This document shows, piece after piece, positions 30,788-46,401 of a stretch of 64,000 nt of DNA (position 1 is its first letter; each line of letters starts with the position of its first letter). The stretch lies in assembly GCF_019795295.1 (NCBI RefSeq), contig NZ_JAIMCG010000004.1, positions 1 through 64,000 on the forward strand. The letters run 5' to 3'. Under the pieces are notes generated by a model. The model was not told the DNA's origin and did no database searches. It saw only the letters and a program-made list of their open reading frames with translations. The stretch comes from Cupriavidus sp. AU9028 (GTDB taxonomy: Bacteria > Pseudomonadota > Gammaproteobacteria > Burkholderiales > Burkholderiaceae). The position numbers were made by a program, and so were the translations under genes.

Positions 30788-31158
30788 GGGATTCTCCGGA
30801 GGTAGTCCTGGCGTTCGGGTTGACTGTTGCGGTCGGGGCGGCAATGACGCTCGGTATGCCGCTCGACCGGTGGCATGAAAGATGAGGCCGCAATGCTATG
30901 GGCACGGGGCAGCCGGCTCTTGCGAAAACTGGCCAAAGCTGTGCAAAGGATTCGGACTACGGTGCAGACCTGAGCCAAGGCCACGGTGGTCGTGGCAACG
31001 GCCTGGAACGGGCGCGAGCGCCGTGCGGAGGCGGGATCGGCGGGGATGCGGCAGAGGCGGGAACGCCCCTTGGCAACATATTTGCTACAGTTTACGCCCG
31101 ACCTGCCCCCGGGCCCGGCCTCCGGTGCCTGGGGCGCTTCATCAAAGGACCGCTTCCC
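30788..31158. other. Divergent intergenic region, ankyrin gene and giant uvrA-like gene
   Basis: These 371 bases contain no supported gene. The relatively AT-rich CAACATATTTGCTACAGTTT (about 31073-31092) is the likely promoter area for the plus-strand uvrA-like gene. No CTGT-N8-ACAG LexA-type operator could be found by eye, so SOS control is not indicated. Confidence 0.45.
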
Positions 31159-37032
<5,874 letters not shown>

Positions 37033-37900
37033 ATGCTGACCAGGCTTGCACAACGAACGCGTCGTTCCCGCGAAAGCGGGAATCCAGCGTCTTCAAAAGC
37101 CACTGGGTCCCCGCCTTCGCGGGGACGACGAGGTGTTGTCACCGGCGTCGGGATGACATGCTGACCACGCTTGCACAACCAATGCGTCGTTCCCGCGAAA
37201 GCGGGAATCCAGCGTCGTCAAAAGCCACTGGGTCCCCGCCTTCGCGGGGATGACGGGGTGTTGTCACCAGCGGCGGGATGACATGCTGACCACGCTTGCA
37301 CAACCAACGCGTCGTTCCCGCGAAAGCGGGAATCCAGCGTCTTCAAAAGCCACTGGGTCCCCGCGTTCGCGGGGATGACGGGGTGTTGTCACCGGCGTCG
37401 CGACGACATGCTGACCACGCTTGAACAACCAACGCGTCGTTCCCGCGAAAGCGGGAATCCAGCGTCTTCAAAAGCCACTGGGTCCCCGCCTTCGCGGGGA
37501 CGACGGGGTGTTGTCACCGGCGTCGGGATGACATGCTGAACCACGCTTGCACAACCAACGCGTCGTTCCCGCGAAAGCGGGAATCCAGCGTCTTCAGAAG
37601 CCACTGGGTCCCCGCGTTCGCGGGGATGACGGGGTGTTGTCACCGGCGGCGGGATGACATGCTGACCACGCTTGCACAACCAACGCGTCGTTCCCGCGGA
37701 AGCGGGAATCCAGCGTCTTCAAAAGCCACTGGGTCCCCGCCTTCGCGGGGACGACGAGGTGTTGTCACCGGCGGCGGGATGACATGCTGACCACGCTTGC
37801 ACAACCAACGCGTCGTTCCCGCGGAAGCGGGAATCCAGCGTCTTCAAAAGCCACTGGGTCCCCGCCTTCGCGGGAATGACGGGGTGTTGTCAGCAGCGTG
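37033..37900. repeat. Seven-copy 125-bp tandem repeat array
   Basis: Units begin at ATGCTGACCA(C/G)G at 37033, 37158, 37283, 37408, 37533, 37659 and 37784. They are 125 bp each, except the fifth, which is 126 through one extra A; the last is truncated. Each unit holds two palindromes: GTTCCCGCGAAAGCGGGAAT, and GGTCCCCGC(C/G)TTCGCGGGGA. These are separated by CCAGCGTCTTCAAAAGCCACT. Units are about 95% identical, and variants such as GACGACGAGG versus GATGACGGGG are mixed along the array, as expected from unequal exchange. It starts 1 bp after the uvrA-like stop and ends just before the garD stop, so it lies between convergent genes and may terminate both. Confidence 0.95.
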
Positions 37901-37931
37901 GGTCCCCGCCACGGCGGGGACCCGCCATCCA

Positions 37932-39539
37932 TCAGGTCACCGGCGCCGGATTGAACAGCACCAGCGAGTTGTGCAACTTGTAATGCTCGGCCCATGACTT
38001 GCGGCCGCTGGCGACGTCCAGCATCTTGTGGAACAGCTCCCAGCCGACCTGCTCGATGGTCGCCTCGCCGGTGGCGATGCGGCCAGCGTCGATATCCATC
38101 AGGTCGTGCCAGCGGCGTGCAAGATCCCGCCGCGTGGCTACCTTGATCACCGGCACTTCGGCCAGGCCGTACGGCGTGCCCCGGCCGGTGGTGAAGATAT
38201 GCAGGTTGATGCCGGCGGCCAGCTGCAGCGTGCCGCAGACGAAGTCGCCTGCGGGCGTGGCCGCATAGATCAGCCCCTTCTGCGTGACGCGCTCGCCCGG
38301 ACCGGAGACGCCATGGATGGCGCCCGTGCCGGACTTGACGATCGAGCCCATCGCCTTCTCGACGATATTGGACAGTCCGCCCTTCTTGTTGCCCGGCGTG
38401 GTGTTGGCGCTGCGGTCCACCTCGCCCTTCTGCAGATAGTTGTCGTACCAGGCCATCTCGCGGATCAGCGCCTGCGCGACTTCCGGGGTGGCGGCGCGCG
38501 CGGTCAGCTGGTCGATGCCATCGCGCACCTCGGTCACCTCCGAGAACATCACCGTCGCACCCGCGCGCACCAGCAGGTCCGCGGCGAAGCCGACCGCCGG
38601 ATTGGCAGTGACGCCGGAAAACGCATCGCTGCCGCCGCACTGCACGCCGACCACCAGGTCCGAGGCCGGACAGGTCTCGCGCTGGCGGGCATTCAGCCGC
38701 TGCAGATGGCGCTCGGCGCTGGCCATGATCGAGTCGATCATCGATTCGAAGCCGACGTGCTGCTCATCCTGCAGGCAGACCACGTCCAGTTCGCCCTCGC
38801 GCTGGATCGGAATGGTGCCGGCACTGGCCAGCCGAGCCGGCTGCAGCTTCTCGCAGCCCAGGCTCACCACCATCACCTCGCCGCCGAAGTTCGGGTTCAG
38901 CGCGATATTGCGAATGGTGCGAATCGGAATGGCGGCGTCCTTCGCATCGATTGCCACGCCGCAGCCATAGCCGTGCTCGAGCCCGACCACGTCATCGACG
39001 TTGGGGTACTTCGGCAGCAGCTCGGCCTTGATCCGGCGCACCGCGTAGTCGACCACCCCCGAGACGCACTGCACCGTGGTGGTGATCGCCAGGATGTTGC
39101 GCGTGCCGACCGAGCCGTCGGCATTGCGGTAGCCCTCGAAGGTATAGCCCTCCAGCGGCGGGGCGGGCGGCGGGACGCGTGTGCAAATCGGCAGGTTCTC
39201 CAACCCGGGCGGTTCCGGCATGCGCAGCACGCGCTCGTTGACCCAGCTGCCGCGCGGCAGCGCCCTGGCGGCATGGCCGATCACCACGTTGTAACGCACC
39301 ACCGGATCGCCCTCGGCGAAGTCGGTCAGCGCGACCTTGTGCCCTTGGGGCACCGCCTCGGCAAGCACCAGGCCGCAGTCGAAGCGCGTGCCGGCGGGCA
39401 GCCCGCCATCGTTGGCGACGATGGCCACGTTGTCGTCCGGGTGCATGGTGATGTAGAGCGGCCGGGCGGCCGCGGGCTTCTGGGCAGGCGGATTCGCCAC
39501 TGCGGGAATCGCCACGGCGGCGTCGGATGTCTGTTGCAT
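37932..39539 (-). CDS. garD: GarD, galactarate dehydratase (UxaA/GarD family)
   Basis: A 535-residue enolase-unrelated dehydratase that converts galactarate to 5-dehydro-4-deoxy-glucarate. It closely follows the E. coli GarD pattern through its whole length: [16 protein letters not shown] at the N-terminus (SAF domain), [19 protein letters not shown], the cysteine-containing [36 protein letters not shown] and a C-terminus in FNPAPVT. Iron-binding residues lie in these conserved loops. ATG 39539 has AAGGGGA about 10 bp upstream. A LacI-type palindrome lies 41 bp in front of the start, shared with lacI and the enolase gene. Confidence 0.93.
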
Positions 39540-39579
39540 TGCTGGTGTCCCCTTGCTTGTCCGCATGTCCAGCGGACCG

Positions 39580-39595
39580 ATGACAACGTTATCAT
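39580..39595. promoter_or_regulatory. LacI-family operator upstream of garD
   Basis: ATGACAACGTTATCAT is a 16-bp palindrome with one mismatch from ATGACAAC-GTTGTCAT, with the central CG typical of LacI/GntR-type repressor sites. It lies 41 bp upstream of the garD start, where a repressor would cover the promoter. Closely matching copies precede lacI and the enolase-superfamily gene. Confidence 0.8.
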
Positions 39596-39652
39596 TTGCC
39601 GCTCGGCGTTGCAAGAATCGCGATGGGCTTTTCGCCAATTGAGGCGCCCGAG

Positions 39653-39832
39653 ACCCTCTCCCCCGGGCCCCTCTGCCGCTCGGCGGGAGAGGGGAGCAAA
39701 CCCTGGGTGATTAACCGCTACCGGGGTTTTCCCCTCCCCCGCTTGCGGGTGAAGAGAGCAAACCCGGGTGATTCAACCGCTGCCGGCGTTCTCCCCTCGC
39801 CCGCTTGCGGGAGAGGGGCCGGGGGAGAGGGC
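39653..39832. repeat. Three hairpin repeats (family A)
   Basis: Copies lie at about 39653-39698 (GCCGCTCGGCGGGAGAGGGG), 39724-39768 (diverged, CTTGCGGGTGAAGAGAG) and 39790-39832 (CGCCCGCTTGCGGGAGAGG plus the full G-rich arm). They share flanks such as AACCGCTACCGGGGTTTTC / AACCGCTGCCGGCGTTCTC, which shows that they arose as a tandem duplication. Confidence 0.75.
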
Positions 39833-39955
39833 ACGCCATGGCTCGCCGTCCCCCAAAGCCATTCCTCTCCTTCATGCGCATGAGAAACCGTCAACCGCCA
39901 AGGCATGGCCATATGACATAGTCGCCGCAACAGAAATAGAGCGAGGAGACTGACC

Positions 39956-40924
39956 ATGCGATTCAACCTGCTTGGCGCCATGATGGCGTCGCTGACTCTC
40001 ATCACGGCCGCCGCCTCGGCGCACGCAGCCGACTGGCCCACCAAACCGGTGCGCATCATCGTGCCGTATGCCCCGGGCGGCATCGCCGACATCTCGGCCC
40101 GCGCCACGGCCCAGCAACTGCAGGCCATCACCGGCCAGACCTTCATCGTCGACAACCGCCCCGGCGCGGATACCCGCATCGGCACCGAGTATGTGGCAAA
40201 ACAGCCGGCGGACGGCTATACCCTGCTGCTCGCCGGCGGCGGCTTCGCCGTCAACAATTCGCTGTTCGACAAGCTGCCCTATGACACGGCGAAGGATTTC
40301 GAGCCGGTCGCCATGGTCGTCTCCAATCCGCTGCTGCTGGTGATCGGTTCGGTGCAGCCCATCAAGACCGTGGCGGACCTGAAGGCGGCCGCCGGCAAGG
40401 ACAAGGGGGTGACGCTGGCCTCGGGGGGCAAGGGCACCCTCAGCCATATGTCGATGGAGCTGTTCGCCTCGGCGACCAAGTTGCCGATCTCGCACGTGCC
40501 CTACCGCGGCGGCTCCGCGCATACCGCCGACGTGGTCAGCGGCCTGGTCACCGGCATCTTCGAGAACCCGAGCTCGGCGCTGCCCATGATCGAGGCGGGC
40601 AAGTATCGCGCAATCGCCGTGACCTCGGCGCAGCGCAACCCGGCCTTCCCGCAGGTGCCGACGATGCAGGAAGCCGGTACGCCCAACTTCGATGTGATCA
40701 ACTGGTTCGGCCTGTTCCTGCCTGCCGGCGTGCCGGCCGACACCGCCGAGAAGATCCGCGGGGCGGTCGCGCAGGCGCTGGCCAATCCGCAGCTGAAGCA
40801 GCGGTTCGCCAAGGAAGGCGTCACGGTGGGCGGTCCGGCCGGCAAGGCTTTCGGCAAGTTCGTCGCCGACGAGACCCGCCGCTGGGGAGACATCATCCGC
40901 GCCCGGGGGATCCGTGCAGACTGA
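39956..40924 (+). CDS. Bug-family tripartite tricarboxylate transporter receptor (TctC-like)
   Basis: A 322-residue periplasmic solute-binding protein of the Bug/TctC family. It has a cleavable signal (LLGAMMASLTLITAAASAHA) and the family opening WPTKPVRIIVPYAPGG, then VDNRPGAD and the second-lobe motif VPYRGG. These proteins bind small carboxylates and pass them to TctAB permeases, but no TctA or TctB gene lies in the window. An alpha/beta hydrolase gene starts inside its last codons (11-bp overlap), so the two are cotranslated. The ligand is unknown; association with the sugar-acid genes is only positional. Confidence 0.93.
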   Translation: MRFNLLGAMMASLTLITAAASAHAADWPTKPVRIIVPYAPGGIADISARATAQQLQAITGQTFIVDNRPGADTRIGTEYVAKQPADGYTLLLAGGGFAVNNSLFDKLPYDTAKDFEPVAMVVSNPLLLVIGSVQPIKTVADLKAAAGKDKGVTLASGGKGTLSHMSMELFASATKLPISHVPYRGGSAHTADVVSGLVTGIFENPSSALPMIEAGKYRAIAVTSAQRNPAFPQVPTMQEAGTPNFDVINWFGLFLPAGVPADTAEKIRGAVAQALANPQLKQRFAKEGVTVGGPAGKAFGKFVADETRRWGDIIRARGIRAD

Positions 40925-41864
40925 GGACCGACCGATCGACCCGGCGCTGCTGGCGGCCGTGGAGGAAACGCAGGCGATGCCCGGCGAGGCCGACGGCGTG
41001 GAACTGCCGGAGGCCGAGGCGCGCAGGCTTGCCAGCGAACTGCGCGCGCGCCGGCTGGCGCGCGCCACCGGCGGCCACGAGCGAGTGTTGCGCGACAACT
41101 GGTACGTCACCGCGCCGGGCCGCGAGATACCGCTGGCGCTGTATCGCCGCGACGCCGACACGCCGGCACGGCCGCTGCTCTACTTCCACGGCGGCGGCTG
41201 GGCGGTGGGCAGCATCGTGACGCACGACGCGCTGTGCGCCCATCTGGCCGCAAGGACCGGGATGGCGGTGATCAGCGTGCACTATCGCCGCACGCCGGAG
41301 AACCCCTATCCGGCGCAGCAGGCCGACGGGCAGGCCGTGCTGGACTGGCTGCTCCGCCATGCCGCCATCCTCAAGCTCGACTTTGGCCCCGGCTGGGTGA
41401 TCGGCGGCGACAGCGCCGGCGCCCATGTCGCGCTGACCCTTGCCTATGCGCTACGGGGCCTGGAGCGCGCGCCGCGGGCGCAGTTGCTGTTCTATCCGGC
41501 GCTGGACCCGGGCCTGGACACGCTCAGCGCCCGGCTGTACGCCGATGGCCCGGCGCTGACGCGCGCCAGCATGCGCTGGTACTGGCGCGCCCTGCTCGGC
41601 GGCGGCATGCCGGAGGGCGCGCTGCCGCTGCGCTGGCCGGACCTGTCCGCGCTGCCGTCGACGGTGCTGGTCACCGCCGAGCACGACCTGCTGCGCGACG
41701 AAGGCGAACTGCTGCATCAGCGGCTGGCCGCGCAGGGCATCGACGTGCGGTTTCGCCGGGCGCCCGGCATGCTGCATGGCTTTGCCCGGCTGCTGAACGC
41801 CAGCGAGGCGGCCCGCCGTCAGGTGGACGACGCCGCGGACGCGCTGCTGTCGCTGCTGCGGTAA
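40914..41864 (+). CDS. Alpha/beta hydrolase of the hormone-sensitive-lipase (HSL) type
   Basis: A 316-residue esterase/lipase-like hydrolase. It shows the oxyanion-hole motif HGGG (YFHGGGWAVGS) and the nucleophile elbow GDSAGAH. The acid lies in TAEHDLLRDEGE and the histidine in PGMLHGFARL, the complete HSL triad. The start is GTG 40914, inside the end of the Bug-receptor gene, with GGGGGAT upstream, so translation is coupled. The substrate is unknown; esters or lactones of the ligand bound by the receptor are possible. Its 3' end overlaps the convergent LysR gene by 46 bp. Confidence 0.9.
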   Translation: MQTEDRPIDPALLAAVEETQAMPGEADGVELPEAEARRLASELRARRLARATGGHERVLRDNWYVTAPGREIPLALYRRDADTPARPLLYFHGGGWAVGSIVTHDALCAHLAARTGMAVISVHYRRTPENPYPAQQADGQAVLDWLLRHAAILKLDFGPGWVIGGDSAGAHVALTLAYALRGLERAPRAQLLFYPALDPGLDTLSARLYADGPALTRASMRWYWRALLGGGMPEGALPLRWPDLSALPSTVLVTAEHDLLRDEGELLHQRLAAQGIDVRFRRAPGMLHGFARLLNASEAARRQVDDAADALLSLLR

Positions 41865-42793
41865 TGCACAGGCGGGCTGGCATGCGCCAGCCACGCCTGC
41901 GCCATCTCCCGGGCCTGCGCGACGAACCAGTTGCGCACGGTGCTGAGACGCCGCGGCGGAATCCGTGTTTCGTCCAGCACCAGGAAGTAGCCGCAGCTGC
42001 CGAGCATCACCTCGTTGAACGGCGCCACCAGCAGGCCGTCCGACAGATGCTGGCGCACCAGCAGGCGCGGCATCAGGCCGATGCCCAGGCCCGCGCGGAT
42101 GGCCTCGATCATCACGGCGTAGTGGTCATAGGATTGGCGCGGCGCCGGCAGCCGCATGCCCGGCGCGAGCGTTGCGTTCCACTCGGCCCACGCGGTGGGA
42201 TAGAGCACGTGCTGCAGCAGCGGCCAGCGCGCCAGATCCTCCGGCCGGGTGACCGGGTCGCGCGACAGGTGCTCCGGCGACGCGATCACCGCCATCTCCC
42301 GGCCGAACAGATAGTCGGCGCTGACGCCCTGCCAGGAACCGGTGCCGAAGCGGATCTCCGCATCGACGTCCTGCTCGGCCACGCGTGCCGACAGCAGCCG
42401 CGTCGATACCTGCAGGTCGATGTCCGGATGGTCCTTGCCGATGCCCGGCAGCAGCGGGATCAGCCAGTATTGCAGCACCGCGGGCGGAGCGAGGATACGG
42501 ATCTGTGTGACATCCGGGTCGGTCTGCCGCACGCGCCGGTCGGTGGCGGCCAACTGGTCCAGTGCCGGCTCGACGCCCTCCAGGAACATCCTGCCGGCGG
42601 GGGTCAGCGCCACGCCACCCACGCGGCTGAACAGCGGCACGCCCAGATGCGACTCCAGCAGACGGATATGCTTGCTGACCGCGCCCTGCGTCAGGCACAG
42701 GCATTCCGCCGCGCGCGTGAAACTGCCCAGCCGGGCGACGGCGAGAAACGCTTCCAGCGTGGCGATCGAATATGGCGGGCGGAACGGCGTCAT
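41819..42793 (-). CDS. LysR-family transcriptional regulator (GcvA-like)
   Basis: A 324-residue LTTR. The N-terminal winged helix-turn-helix has the standard form (FLAVARLGSFTRAAECLCL then GAVSKHIRLLE). The effector domain shows GcvA-like phrases (AEIRFGTGSW, ADYLFGREMAVIASPEHL). Its target is not evident; the neighbouring Bug-hydrolase pair is a candidate. ATG 42793 gives a normal LTTR N-terminus, but no good ribosome-binding site is seen, so an upstream in-frame start is possible. It lies downstream of lacI on the same strand with a 106-bp gap. The C-terminal residues are encoded opposite the end of the hydrolase gene. Confidence 0.9.
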   Translation of the reverse strand: MTPFRPPYSIATLEAFLAVARLGSFTRAAECLCLTQGAVSKHIRLLESHLGVPLFSRVGGVALTPAGRMFLEGVEPALDQLAATDRRVRQTDPDVTQIRILAPPAVLQYWLIPLLPGIGKDHPDIDLQVSTRLLSARVAEQDVDAEIRFGTGSWQGVSADYLFGREMAVIASPEHLSRDPVTRPEDLARWPLLQHVLYPTAWAEWNATLAPGMRLPAPRQSYDHYAVMIEAIRAGLGIGLMPRLLVRQHLSDGLLVAPFNEVMLGSCGYFLVLDETRIPPRRLSTVRNWFVAQAREMAQAWLAHASPPVHYRSSDSSASAASST

Positions 42794-42899
42794 GGAGGTG
42801 CCGGCAATGTCGCTCTGATGCCGCCAGCTTAACGCCAGTGCCCGGCAAGTCATATCCCGATTGTCCCGGGGCGCCCTGCCGGCCGCGATGCCACGCCTG

Positions 42900-43895
42900 T
42901 CAGGTCGAGGCCCGCTCCACGATGCGAAAGCCGACGTCGATCACCGGCTCCGGCACCGTCTCGCCACGGCAGCGAGCCAGGATCAGCCTTGCCGCGCGAT
43001 CGCCGATGCCGTGGCCGTCCACCTGCACCGTGGTCAGCGAGGGCTCCATATGCGCGGCGAAATCGGCATCGCCGAAGCCGCAGATCGCCAGATCCTCGGG
43101 GCTGCGAAGCCCGCGCGCCGCCGCCTCCACCAGTACCCCCTGGGCCAGCTGGTCCGAACTGCAGCAGATCGCCTCGATTCGCCGGTCCTGTTCGAGCAGC
43201 TGCGCCAATGCGCGCCGGCCCGAGGCCAGGCTGCTTGGTGCGGGGACGACCACCGTGGGCACGTCATGGCCAATCGTCGACAGGAAACCCTCGCGCCGCA
43301 CCGCCGCCCGGTGGTCGTCCGCGGTCGCGATGGCCACGCGGCGCCAGCCGCGCGACAGGAAATAGCCCGCCACCGCGCTGCCCACCTTCAGATGGGAGAA
43401 GCCGACGGCCATGTCGACCGGGCGGTCGCTCAGTTCCCAGGTTTCCACCACCGGAATGCCGGCGCGGCGCAGCTGCTCGCGCGAGGTCGGCGAGCGCAGC
43501 AAACCGGCCACCACGATGCCGTCGGGGCGACGGCTGATGATGGTGTTCAGCAGCGCCGCCTCGCGCGCGTGGTCGTACCCCATCTGGGCCAGGATCAGCT
43601 GGTAGCCGGCCGCATCCAGCGCTTCGGTCAGCGCCTTGATGGTCGGCACGAACTGCGCCACCGAGATGCTGGGCACCAGCAACGCCACCGTCATGCTGCG
43701 CCGTGACTTGAGGCCGCCGGCCAGCAGATTGGGGATGTAGCCGGTGGCCTCGACCGCGGCACGAACCCGCTCGATGGTGGCGTCGGACACGAGGTTCGGC
43801 TTGCTCAACGCGCGCGACGCGGTGATCAGCGACACGCCCGCCTCGCGTGCCACGTCATGCAGCGTCACGGACTTTGGAGCGGTGGAGTCGGTCAT
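42900..43895 (-). CDS. LacI/GntR-type repressor, probable regulator of the galactarate genes
   Basis: A 331-residue LacI-family regulator. The N-terminal helix-turn-helix is VTLHDVAREAGVSLITASRAL (about 10-30), followed by the hinge helix IPNLLAGGLKSRRS. The periplasmic-binding-protein-like effector domain follows, with IICSSDQLAQG-type and CGFGDADFAAHMEPSLTTV motifs. It resembles the gluconate repressor GntR subgroup. A palindrome lies at 43956-43971, 61 bp in front of its own start, and others in front of garD and the enolase gene, so it is the obvious candidate ligand-responsive repressor of that regulon and of itself. Confidence 0.92.
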   Translation of the reverse strand: MTDSTAPKSVTLHDVAREAGVSLITASRALSKPNLVSDATIERVRAAVEATGYIPNLLAGGLKSRRSMTVALLVPSISVAQFVPTIKALTEALDAAGYQLILAQMGYDHAREAALLNTIISRRPDGIVVAGLLRSPTSREQLRRAGIPVVETWELSDRPVDMAVGFSHLKVGSAVAGYFLSRGWRRVAIATADDHRAAVRREGFLSTIGHDVPTVVVPAPSSLASGRRALAQLLEQDRRIEAICCSSDQLAQGVLVEAAARGLRSPEDLAICGFGDADFAAHMEPSLTTVQVDGHGIGDRAARLILARCRGETVPEPVIDVGFRIVERAST

Positions 43896-43955
43896 GGCGG
43901 TCAGTAGGGGTAAATCAGGAGGGCGTACCCGCAGTACGGCGGTTGACCCGCCAAA

Positions 43956-43971
43956 ATGACAACGTTAGCAT
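43956..43971. promoter_or_regulatory. LacI-family operator upstream of lacI
   Basis: ATGACAACGTTAGCAT matches the first half of the palindrome exactly and differs at two positions in the second half. It lies 61 bp upstream of the lacI start, suggesting autoregulation. Centre-to-centre distance to the perfect site at 44066-44081 is 110 bp. Confidence 0.7.
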
Positions 43972-44065
43972 TCGTCATCAAGGCAGCCGGGCGACCCAAG
44001 AGGGTGGCCCCGAGCGATTATACCGCTGCGCAACACCGCTGAAGCGCGCCGCACTCCGCGCAAAA

Positions 44066-44081
44066 ATGACAACGTTGTCAT
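44066..44081. promoter_or_regulatory. LacI-family operator upstream of the enolase-superfamily gene
   Basis: ATGACAACGTTGTCAT is a perfect 16-bp palindrome, 75 bp upstream of the start of the talarate/galactarate dehydratase gene. It is the best of the three sites and defines the consensus. The central CG and half-site spacing are as in other LacI/GntR-type operators. Confidence 0.82.
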
Positions 44082-44155
44082 TCTCTTTCCAGAGCGGCAA
44101 GCGCTGCGGGCGGGCTGCCCGATTCTCCTTCCACCTAACGGGATGCCGCCTCGCC

Positions 44156-45322
44156 ATGACCATGCCGCCCTCCTTCACCGCCTCCGCTCCTGCGCTGCCC
44201 GGCGCCATCGCCTGGATCCGGCTGTCCTCCTGCTACCTGCCGCTCGCCACGCCGATCAGCGATGCCAAGGTGCTCACGGGCCGGCAGAAGCCCATGACGG
44301 AAGTGGCGATCCTGTTCGCCGAGATCCGCACCGCCGACGGGCATGAAGGTCTCGGCTTCAGCTACGCCAAGCGAGCCGGTGGCCCCGGACAGTTCGCGCA
44401 CGCCTGCGAGATCGCCCCCGCGCTGCTCGGCGAGGACGCCAGCGATATCGCCCGGCTGTGGGACAAGCTGTGCTGGGCCGGCGCCTCGGTCGGCCGCAGC
44501 GGCCTGTCGACGCAGGCGATCGGCGCCTTCGACGTCGCGATGTGGGACCTGAAGGCGCGGCGGGCGGGGCTGTCGCTCGCCAAGCTGCTGGGCGCCCACC
44601 GTGATTCCGTACGCTGCTACAACACCTCGGGCGGCTTTCTGCATACCCCGCTGGACCAGTTGCTGGTCAACGCCGCCGCATCGGTCGAGCGCGGCATCGG
44701 CGGCATCAAGCTGAAGGTAGGCCAGCCCGACGGGGCGCTGGACCTGAAGCGCGTCGCAGCGGTACGCGAGCGGCTCGGCGACGCCGTGCCGCTGATGGTC
44801 GATGCCAACCAGCAGTGGGACCGGCCGACCGCGCAGCGCATGTGCCGCACCTTCGAGTCGTTCAACCTGGTGTGGATCGAGGAGCCGCTCGACGCCTATG
44901 ACCACGAGGGACATGCGGCCCTGGCCGCCAGCTTCGATACGCCGATCGCGACCGGGGAAATGCTGACCAGCGCGGCCGAGCACTGGGAGCTGATCCGCCA
45001 CCGCGCCGCCGACTACCTGATGCCCGATGCGCCGCGCGTGGGCGGCATCACGCCGTTTCTCAAGGTCGCGGCGCTGGCCGAGCACGCCGGGCTGATGATC
45101 GCGCCCCACTTCGCCATGGAGCTGCATGTCCACCTGGCCGCCGCCTATCCGCGCGAGCCGTGGGTCGAGCATTTCGACTGGCTCGAACCGCTGTTCAACG
45201 AACGGCTGCAGATCCGCGACGGCCGCATCGTGGTGCCGACCGCGCCCGGCCTGGGCGTTTCCATCAGCGAGCAGGCGCGCGCCTGGACGCGGCAGCAGAC
45301 CGAGTTCGGCGCCCGACCATAA
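44156..45322 (+). CDS. Enolase-superfamily dehydratase, L-talarate/galactarate dehydratase type
   Basis: A 388-residue member of the mandelate racemase subgroup. The catalytic K-x-K pair is K185/K187 in GIKLKVGQ. Metal ligands are D216 (MVDANQQW), E242 or E243 (WIEEPLD) and E268 (IATGEM), and the general acid/base histidine is H318 (IAPHFAMELH). The N-terminal SDAKVLTGRQKPMTEVA resembles characterised L-talarate/galactarate dehydratases. The reaction removes water from the aldarate to give a 3-deoxy-2-keto acid. Two in-frame ATGs (44156, 44162) lie close together, and the ribosome-binding site is weak. The gene is preceded by a perfect LacI-type operator and followed after 113 bp by a Bug receptor, probably as one transcript. 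Confidence 0.9.
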   Translation: MTMPPSFTASAPALPGAIAWIRLSSCYLPLATPISDAKVLTGRQKPMTEVAILFAEIRTADGHEGLGFSYAKRAGGPGQFAHACEIAPALLGEDASDIARLWDKLCWAGASVGRSGLSTQAIGAFDVAMWDLKARRAGLSLAKLLGAHRDSVRCYNTSGGFLHTPLDQLLVNAAASVERGIGGIKLKVGQPDGALDLKRVAAVRERLGDAVPLMVDANQQWDRPTAQRMCRTFESFNLVWIEEPLDAYDHEGHAALAASFDTPIATGEMLTSAAEHWELIRHRAADYLMPDAPRVGGITPFLKVAALAEHAGLMIAPHFAMELHVHLAAAYPREPWVEHFDWLEPLFNERLQIRDGRIVVPTAPGLGVSISEQARAWTRQQTEFGARP

Positions 45323-45435: not shown

Positions 45436-46401
45436 ATGAGAACGCTGAACACGCTGGTTGCAACCGTACTACTGGGCGCGTCGATCGCCAGCGCCCACGC
45501 CGGCTGGCCGGACAAGCCGGTCACGATGGTCGTGCCCTTCCCGCCGGGGGGCTCGACCGACAACGTCGCCCGGATGCTCAGTGCGAAATTCCAGGAGCGC
45601 TTCGGCGGCACCTTCGTCGTCGACAACCGACCGGGGGCCGCTGGCATGATCGCCGCCGCCGCGACGCGCCGGGCGGCGCCCGACGGCTATACGCTGTTCG
45701 TGTCCTCGCTGGGACCGTTCGTCATCGCACCCCATCTGGTGAAGAGCCCCGGCTATGACCCCCTGAAGGACTTCGACTACATCAGCGTCGCGGTGCAGGC
45801 GCCGAACGTGCTGGCCGTGCCGGCCAGCTCGCCGCACAAGACGCTGCAGGATGTGATTGCCTTCCTGAAGGCAAACCCCAACAAGATGACCTTCGCGTCC
45901 GCGGGCAATGGCACCAGCGACCACCTGACCGCCGAACTGTTCTGGCAGCAGACCGGCACGACCGGCATCCATGTTCCCTACAAGGGCGGCGCGCCGGCCA
46001 TGACCGATCTGATCGGCGGCCAGGTCGATGCGACCTTCATGAACATCAATACCGCGGTGCCGCTGGTCAAGGCCGGCAAGCTTCGTGCGCTGGCGATCAC
46101 CAGCAACCAGCGCTCGCCCGTGCTGCCAGCCGTGCCAACCATGGAGGAGTCCGGCATCCGCAATACGACCGTCTATTCCTGGCAGGCGGTCGCGGCGCCC
46201 AGGGGGCTGCCGGCGGACATCAAGGCAAAGGTGCAAGAGGCCATCGCAGCGGCCGTCAACGATCCGGCGGTGAAGCCGAAACTGCTGGAGGTGGGATTCG
46301 AGATCGTAGCCAATACGCCGGAAGAGTTCGCGGCGTTCCAGGCAAAAGAGTACGCGCGCTGGAAGAAGGTAATCGAGGTGGGCGGAATCACGGCGGACTG
46401 A
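45436..46401 (+). CDS. Bug-family tripartite tricarboxylate transporter receptor, linked to aldarate dehydratase
   Basis: A 321-residue periplasmic Bug/TctC-type binding protein. The signal peptide ends at about ASAHA (residues 1-22), and the ligand-binding lobe begins WPDKPVTMVVPFPPGGSTDN. VDNRPGAA and HVPYKGGAPAM are the further family motifs. ATG 45436 has a strong GAGGAGAGG ribosome-binding site. It follows the galactarate-type dehydratase gene on the same strand, without a promoter visible between them, so aldarates are a reasonable guess for the ligand. No TctAB permease genes are nearby. Confidence 0.93.
   Translation: MRTLNTLVATVLLGASIASAHAGWPDKPVTMVVPFPPGGSTDNVARMLSAKFQERFGGTFVVDNRPGAAGMIAAAATRRAAPDGYTLFVSSLGPFVIAPHLVKSPGYDPLKDFDYISVAVQAPNVLAVPASSPHKTLQDVIAFLKANPNKMTFASAGNGTSDHLTAELFWQQTGTTGIHVPYKGGAPAMTDLIGGQVDATFMNINTAVPLVKAGKLRALAITSNQRSPVLPAVPTMEESGIRNTTVYSWQAVAAPRGLPADIKAKVQEAIAAAVNDPAVKPKLLEVGFEIVANTPEEFAAFQAKEYARWKKVIEVGGITAD

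Follow-up and report, generated by a model that had tools for sequence, protein, structure and literature searches.

A probable LacI-family regulon for galactarate use in Cupriavidus, with garD as a likely member in Cupriavidus sp. AU9028

The first 64,000 nucleotides of contig NZ_JAIMCG010000004.1 of Cupriavidus sp. AU9028 (RefSeq assembly GCF_019795295.1), hereafter the window, contain a LacI-family regulator gene (lacI) that is divergent to an enolase-superfamily dehydratase gene (talrD), with the galactarate dehydratase gene garD beyond the other end of lacI. Three near-identical 16-bp palindromes stand in front of garD and between lacI and talrD (Table 1). We consider it likely that these genes and sites belong to a local LacI-family regulon for the use of galactarate, and probably also of L-talarate, in Cupriavidus, which in this genome would take in garD as well; two unrelated enzyme families, whose common substrate by family name is galactarate, appear to share one operator type.

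The gene names given in a first-pass annotation are borne out by profile searches: GarD passes TIGR03248, the dehydratase passes NF047820, and the regulator (P0001) has the helix-turn-helix and periplasmic-binding-type domains of the LacI family. P0001 scores below the cut-off of every named NCBIfam equivalog, the best-scoring named model being NF052440 (GntR; 293.6 bits, short of the cut-off of 400). The talrD operon probably includes the TctC-type gene as its second gene.

Table 1. Features of the garD-lacI-talrD region, in window coordinates; PWM, position weight matrix.
Feature	Coordinates	Strand	Evidence
garD, galactarate dehydratase (SAF/GD_AH type)	37932..39539	-	TIGR03248 936.7 bits, cut-off 730.85; PDB 6u7l, 4.4e-233
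Operator at garD	39580..39595		40 bp before garD start codon; 1 mismatch; PWM score 32.4
LacI-family regulator gene (P0001), proposed repressor	42900..43895	-	PF00356 60.5 bits (cut-off 27), PF13377 92.8 (cut-off 26.5)
-35 box TTGACC, predicted talrD promoter	43943..43948	+	At least 5/6 match at 17 or 18 bp in 28/28 Cupriavidus regions
Operator O1, overlaps talrD -10 box	43956..43971		Motif scan; kept in 28/28
-10 box TAGCAT, predicted talrD promoter (last six bases of O1)	43966..43971	+	TAGCAT in 26/28
TATAAT, predicted lacI -10 box, without recognisable -35	44017..44022	-	Exact in 22/28
Operator O2, upstream of lacI -10 box, in predicted talrD leader	44066..44081		Second site in 28/28
talrD, L-talarate/galactarate dehydratase (enolase superfamily; predicted activity)	44156..45322	+	NF047820 691.5 bits, cut-off 500; PDB 2og9, 2pp0
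TctC-type receptor gene	45436..46401	+	PF03401; after talrD in 26/27 relatives

A motif scan of the window with the strict motif ATGACAACGTTGTCAT gives four matches at up to 3 mismatches, where shuffles predict 0.06 per window and none of 100 shuffled windows had four. O2 is the strict motif itself, a perfect palindrome, and the operator at garD (ATGACAACGTTATCAT) and O1 (ATGACAACGTTAGCAT) differ from it by 1 and 2 mismatches; the remaining match (39421–39436, within garD) has 3 mismatches and is the only one besides the three operators, which confirms the three palindromes reported in the first-pass annotation at 39580, 43956 and 44066. In the whole genome (4,683,457 bases in 42 contigs) the strict motif has 16 sites at up to 3 mismatches, versus 4 for a reversed-pattern control, and five at up to 2 mismatches, namely the three operators, C1:52194 and C39:165785. 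The degenerate motif ATGAYAACGTTRTCAT, allowing 1 mismatch, finds the three operators only, with no match for the control, and the genome-wide search that the first-pass annotation had called for thus gives no sign of a wide spread at unrelated loci.

The two further sites were considered as targets and rejected. At C1:52194 (L003 1501–1516) the list of open reading frames (ORFs) shows no LacI or aldarate gene; the palindrome there, ATGACAATGCTGTCAT, lies inside a longer inverted repeat in apparently non-coding DNA, with a LysR-type gene ~0.5 kb off as judged by eye. At C39:165785 (L005 1501–1516), ATGAAAACGTTTTCAT lies where another LacI-like frame begins and probably represents a second LacI regulon.

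The distribution of the motif was followed in 60 Cupriavidus genomes, strain AU9028 included. A LacI ortholog is encoded by 28 of these (71–80% identity for those other than AU9028), and in every case lacI is divergent to talrD with two operators in between; the features looked for in a LacI regulon, an even palindrome with a central CG kept among orthologs, are present as a 16-bp site at all 28 loci. Matches to the degenerate motif with at most 1 mismatch occur in 30 genomes, comprising the 28 with the ortholog together with G049 (two sites) and G015 (one), the only two of the 32 ortholog-less genomes with matches, which lie away from such genes; the reversed pattern has none in any of the 60. 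TalrD scores over the cut-off in 38 genomes, and the ten of these without the ortholog (G003, G006, G018, G022, G024, G025, G032, G042, G047 and G056) have no match to the degenerate motif at this threshold; five have talrD-tctC with no LacI match nearby, and the other five carry LacI paralogs of 41–51% identity near talrD. Six isolated sites were seen in other genomes (two each in G049 and G036, one each in G027 and G015), with no adjacent LacI gene or aldarate enzyme in ORF lists inspected by eye; one of the G049 sites has a TctC-like gene ~0.5 kb away.

Beyond the genus, a scan of a genome collection gave 115 LacI relatives, and among the best 80 of these, 28 loci (L172–L199) reach at least 63% identity, 16 of them from Cupriavidus and 12 from elsewhere (Sphaerotilus, Xylophilus, Polaromonas, Ramlibacter and Verticiella, two Variovorax, three Bordetella, and two assemblies named to family or class). 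The recognition helix VS[L/P]ITASRA is common to all 28, and 24 have at least two sites at up to 2 mismatches. In Pseudomonas-type relatives (47–49% identity) the helix reads VSPITVSR, and the operator ATGACAGCGCTGTCAT is present at four of five loci, the fifth covering only 50 bp upstream; that helix and operator change together lends indirect support to a direct contact of LacI protein and site. A search of 399 genomes of the order for exact matches to the degenerate motif found only three, in AU9028, G238 and G086. G238 carries a LacI ortholog of 76% identity, and the 300 bp of it that were compared do not differ from the Xylophilus locus, so that the two are counted once; at G086 none of the seven window proteins has a match and nothing related is seen. 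Within Cupriavidus and outside it, the motif tracks the ortholog of this LacI protein rather than talrD or garD alone, and this co-occurrence supports the earlier proposal of a LacI-type aldarate regulon with this LacI protein as its likely repressor.

The intergenic region between lacI and talrD has a conserved promoter layout. Each of the 28 Cupriavidus regions has a talrD-facing -35 box that agrees with TTGACA at five or more of its six positions. It precedes the final six bases of O1, the operator nearer to lacI, with a spacing of 17 bp in 24 regions and 18 bp in four, an arrangement that arises by chance in 0.55% of cases after shuffling of the 40 bp upstream; the hexamer is TAGCAT in 26, TACCAT in one and TATCAT in one. 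Outside the genus a talrD promoter over O1 (spacing 16–18 bp) is found at eight of the 12 loci, and an independent consensus scan of 43880–44170 returned a single promoter-like pair, TTGACC-17-TAGCAT (43943–43971, plus strand). Taken together, the conserved pair and the scan place O1 on the predicted talrD promoter. A TATAAT that faces lacI lies between O2 and O1; it is exact in 22 regions and one base off in six (TACAAT four times, TAAAAT, TATACT), and its distance from O2 is 20–70 bp across the 28 and 43 bp here. The predicted start sites are at ~43978 for talrD and ~44010 for lacI, so that the two promoters would face each other with each operator in the leader of the other gene, and the transcripts are predicted to overlap by ~31 nt here and by 16–110 nt across the 28. 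A terminator-like hairpin at 44107–44121, within the talrD leader as predicted, is probably a chance occurrence (one seen against 0.2 expected). Looping between O1 and O2 was tried as a conserved requirement and rejected, the 28 spacings of 91–178 bp showing no helical phase (Rayleigh p 0.54–0.97).

This predicted layout reverses the first-pass assignment of 43956 to lacI and of 44066 to the dehydratase gene, with the former overlapping the talrD-facing -10 box and the latter upstream of the lacI-facing TATAAT. Autoregulation, as also suggested there, is still likely, not through 43956 as the promoter site of lacI but through 44066, as a roadblock, or both.

The control of garD differs among the genomes. 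GarD scores over the cut-off in 55 of the 60, and the upstream regions of 49 garD loci from 48 genomes were surveyed over ~410 bp each, including all 27 LacI-bearing genomes with garD (G012, 54% complete, has none); G003, G014, G029, G032, G045, G048 and G054, which have no LacI ortholog, were left out, and one surveyed locus (L047, G006) covers almost no upstream DNA. A LacI operator was found only in AU9028 (PWM score 32.4 at -56), and in the other 26 LacI-bearing genomes the best score over this distance is negative. In four relatives (G033, G031, G019 and G040) garD occupies the third place in the talrD operon. Among the genomes surveyed, only AU9028 has an operator of this type directly before garD, and such a site is not typical of the regulon.

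Other sites are found at garD elsewhere. In 11 of the 21 loci (20 genomes) with the same type of garD as AU9028, there are one or two palindromes TTGTNNNACAA with flanks, often ATGTTGTCNGACAAC (e.g. L134–L143), and none at AU9028 garD or at the 28 loci of the other garD type. These are perhaps sites of a GntR/FCD-type regulator, to judge by resemblance; TTGTCNGACAA is not enriched in the AU9028 genome (2 versus 2 in the control). G001, which is without the ortholog, has ATGATAGCGCTATCAT ~76 bp before garD (L053), resembling ATGATAGCGCTGTCAT, a site that lies in the same genome close to a LacI paralog of 54% identity. We read the history of garD as a possible exchange of regulator. An ancestral operator at garD was also tried and is not supported: the GarD tree does not settle the placement of the AU9028 branch, and the LacI tree has long branches and unsettled bootstrap values.

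The Variovorax locus L195 bears on the substrate. Its operators precede a uronate dehydrogenase-like gene (PDB 3rft, 1.2e-70), two MFS transporter genes, one product scoring above and one below the cut-off of the D-galactonate transporter model, and a garD truncated where the locus ends; talrD was not found in the 5 kb of the locus. In L191, a relative of L195, the uronate dehydrogenase-like gene follows talrD. Uronate dehydrogenase converts uronates to aldarates, and aldarates are on this ground a well-supported substrate class. KdgD (C11:342919–343812, over the cut-off) was tried as a fourth target and rejected, the best match in its 3.9-kb locus having 5 mismatches. The gene beside kdgD resembles that of a FadR-type regulator, by eye only.

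From these features we propose that, as long as substrate is absent, the LacI protein would occupy the 16-bp palindromes, with their core GAYAACGTTRTC, as a dimer. On O1 it would mask the -10 box of the promoter for talrD and tctC, and on O2, upstream of the TATAAT predicted to drive lacI, it would bring about autoregulation; with the promoters facing each other, each operator would also be in the leader of the other gene and may act there as a roadblock. The third operator in AU9028 would bring garD, a second and unrelated galactarate dehydratase, under the same repressor, and an aldarate or a keto-deoxy product would release it.

Several observations weigh against this proposal. The genomes are related, so that counts such as 28 of 28 represent non-independent events. 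Among the more distant loci, Verticiella has a single site, and each of the three Bordetella loci has a pair of altered sites in which the core is retained; all four have a weak -35 box or none. The lacI-facing TATAAT, for which base shuffles give a chance rate of 1.2%, was counted only after being noticed; a good -35 box for it was not found, it is exact at none of the 12 loci outside the genus, and the scan of 43880–44170 did not pick it up. The G of TAGCAT weakens palindrome and -10 box alike; the A before it suits a -10 box, and the G itself is perhaps a matter of tuning. In 22 of the 27 LacI-bearing genomes with garD, the gene is neither behind an operator nor in the talrD operon, no promoter was recognised at AU9028 garD in a scan of 39500–39960, and KdgD, the next enzyme, is without an operator in its 3.9-kb locus.

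Alternative readings of the sites differ in what they leave unexplained. Back-to-back promoters would make 43956 the operator through which lacI regulates itself and 44066 that of talrD, each site then being nearest to the gene it is named for (60 bp before lacI, 74 bp before talrD), and the facing layout has for its lacI promoter nothing beyond a TATAAT. We nonetheless regard the back-to-back arrangement as unlikely, given that the talrD-facing -35 stands 17 or 18 bp from the hexamer of the lacI-proximal site throughout the 28 regions, at the low shuffled rate noted above, and that the sole promoter-like pair of the scan faces talrD. That the garD site is a chance match, with garD controlled otherwise and only the lacI-talrD divergon real, would fit the lack of a comparable site at the other garD loci surveyed, the absence of a recognised promoter beside it, and the presence of a different palindrome, TTGTNNNACAA with flanks, at 11 of the 21 loci that have this type of garD. 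It is very unlikely in view of the rarity of the exact degenerate motif, present in only three of 399 genomes of the order (AU9028 included) and placed here 40 bp upstream of a galactarate gene's start codon, and of the four relatives and one Variovorax locus with garD in an operon behind such operators.

Binding of the sites by another regulator, either the LysR-type protein encoded at 41819–42853 between garD and lacI or one of the proteins behind four further LacI-like matches in the genome, is the least credible of these readings and highly improbable. The LysR protein has no match in the 18-kb loci of 27 relatives (threshold 1e-30) though the sites are present there, and talrD genomes without the LacI ortholog lack the sites, five of them carrying LacI paralogs near talrD. 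We therefore keep to the LacI protein acting on facing promoters as the preferred reading. A more elaborate form of it is a crossed switch kept in Cupriavidus, in which each operator would serve both as promoter operator and as roadblock, the transcripts would overlap, O1 would be kept weak, and garD would have been rewired in AU9028 by an operator of its own replacing the site of another regulator; taken as a whole, this extension is doubtful.

The proposed regulon resembles known systems in part. Face-to-face divergent promoters are a known category, and overlapping transcripts are likewise predicted here, from consensus boxes only. SdaR/CdaR is an activator outside the LacI family. It is described as controlling the glucarate/galactarate pathway of Escherichia coli (PMC2996990; PMC10204090), and is a different regulator. 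In the main text of Ravcheev et al. 2014 (PMC4052901), LacI operators are even palindromes with a central CG upstream of the start codon, 72% of LacI-family regulators are autoregulated, and several sites may be present in divergently transcribed regions; the present sites fit that description of local LacI sugar regulons, as 16-bp even palindromes with central CG of which two stand in a divergent region. That main text does not mention galactarate, glucarate, aldarate or Cupriavidus. The GntR group (NF052440) is the best named relative of P0001, and relatives at ~50% occur near sugar-acid genes; the difference is that P0001 scores below its cut-off, and that the operators of G001 and the Pseudomonas-type relatives are centred on GCGC, not ACGT. 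No description of a LacI-family galactarate regulon in this group was recognised among the open-licence papers listed, and RegPrecise or supplements may list one.

The surroundings of garD have several further features. Between garD and lacI (39956–42853) there are a TctC-type gene, an alpha/beta hydrolase gene and the LysR gene, none of which was found near lacI in relatives; this TctC gene has close relatives (E up to 1e-100) in only two of the 60 genomes, AU9028 and G042. Directly downstream of garD is a tandem array of 125-bp units that also has inverted copies (36914–37964; seven 300-nt windows, 125–126 bp spacing), and a 62-bp repeat in two direct copies lies between garD and the next gene (39683–39806), such that repeats flank garD on both sides. 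A 2044-aa frame at 30898–37032 resembles, by eye, two UvrA-type halves in one protein.

For a LacI group that curated NCBIfam models leave unnamed and that recurs in several Burkholderiales genera, the regulon provides a function open to testing, together with an operator and a list of targets. Its repressor and operator would form a pair suited to sensing galactarate or related compounds from the breakdown of uronic acids. Were the crossed switch true, there would be a mechanical coupling between induction of the dehydratase operon and control over the repressor gene, which may give a sharp or hysteretic response. The locus also offers a small case of regulatory change, in which garD would have come under one repressor by two routes, within the operon in four relatives and through its own operator here, while other relatives have another palindrome before it.

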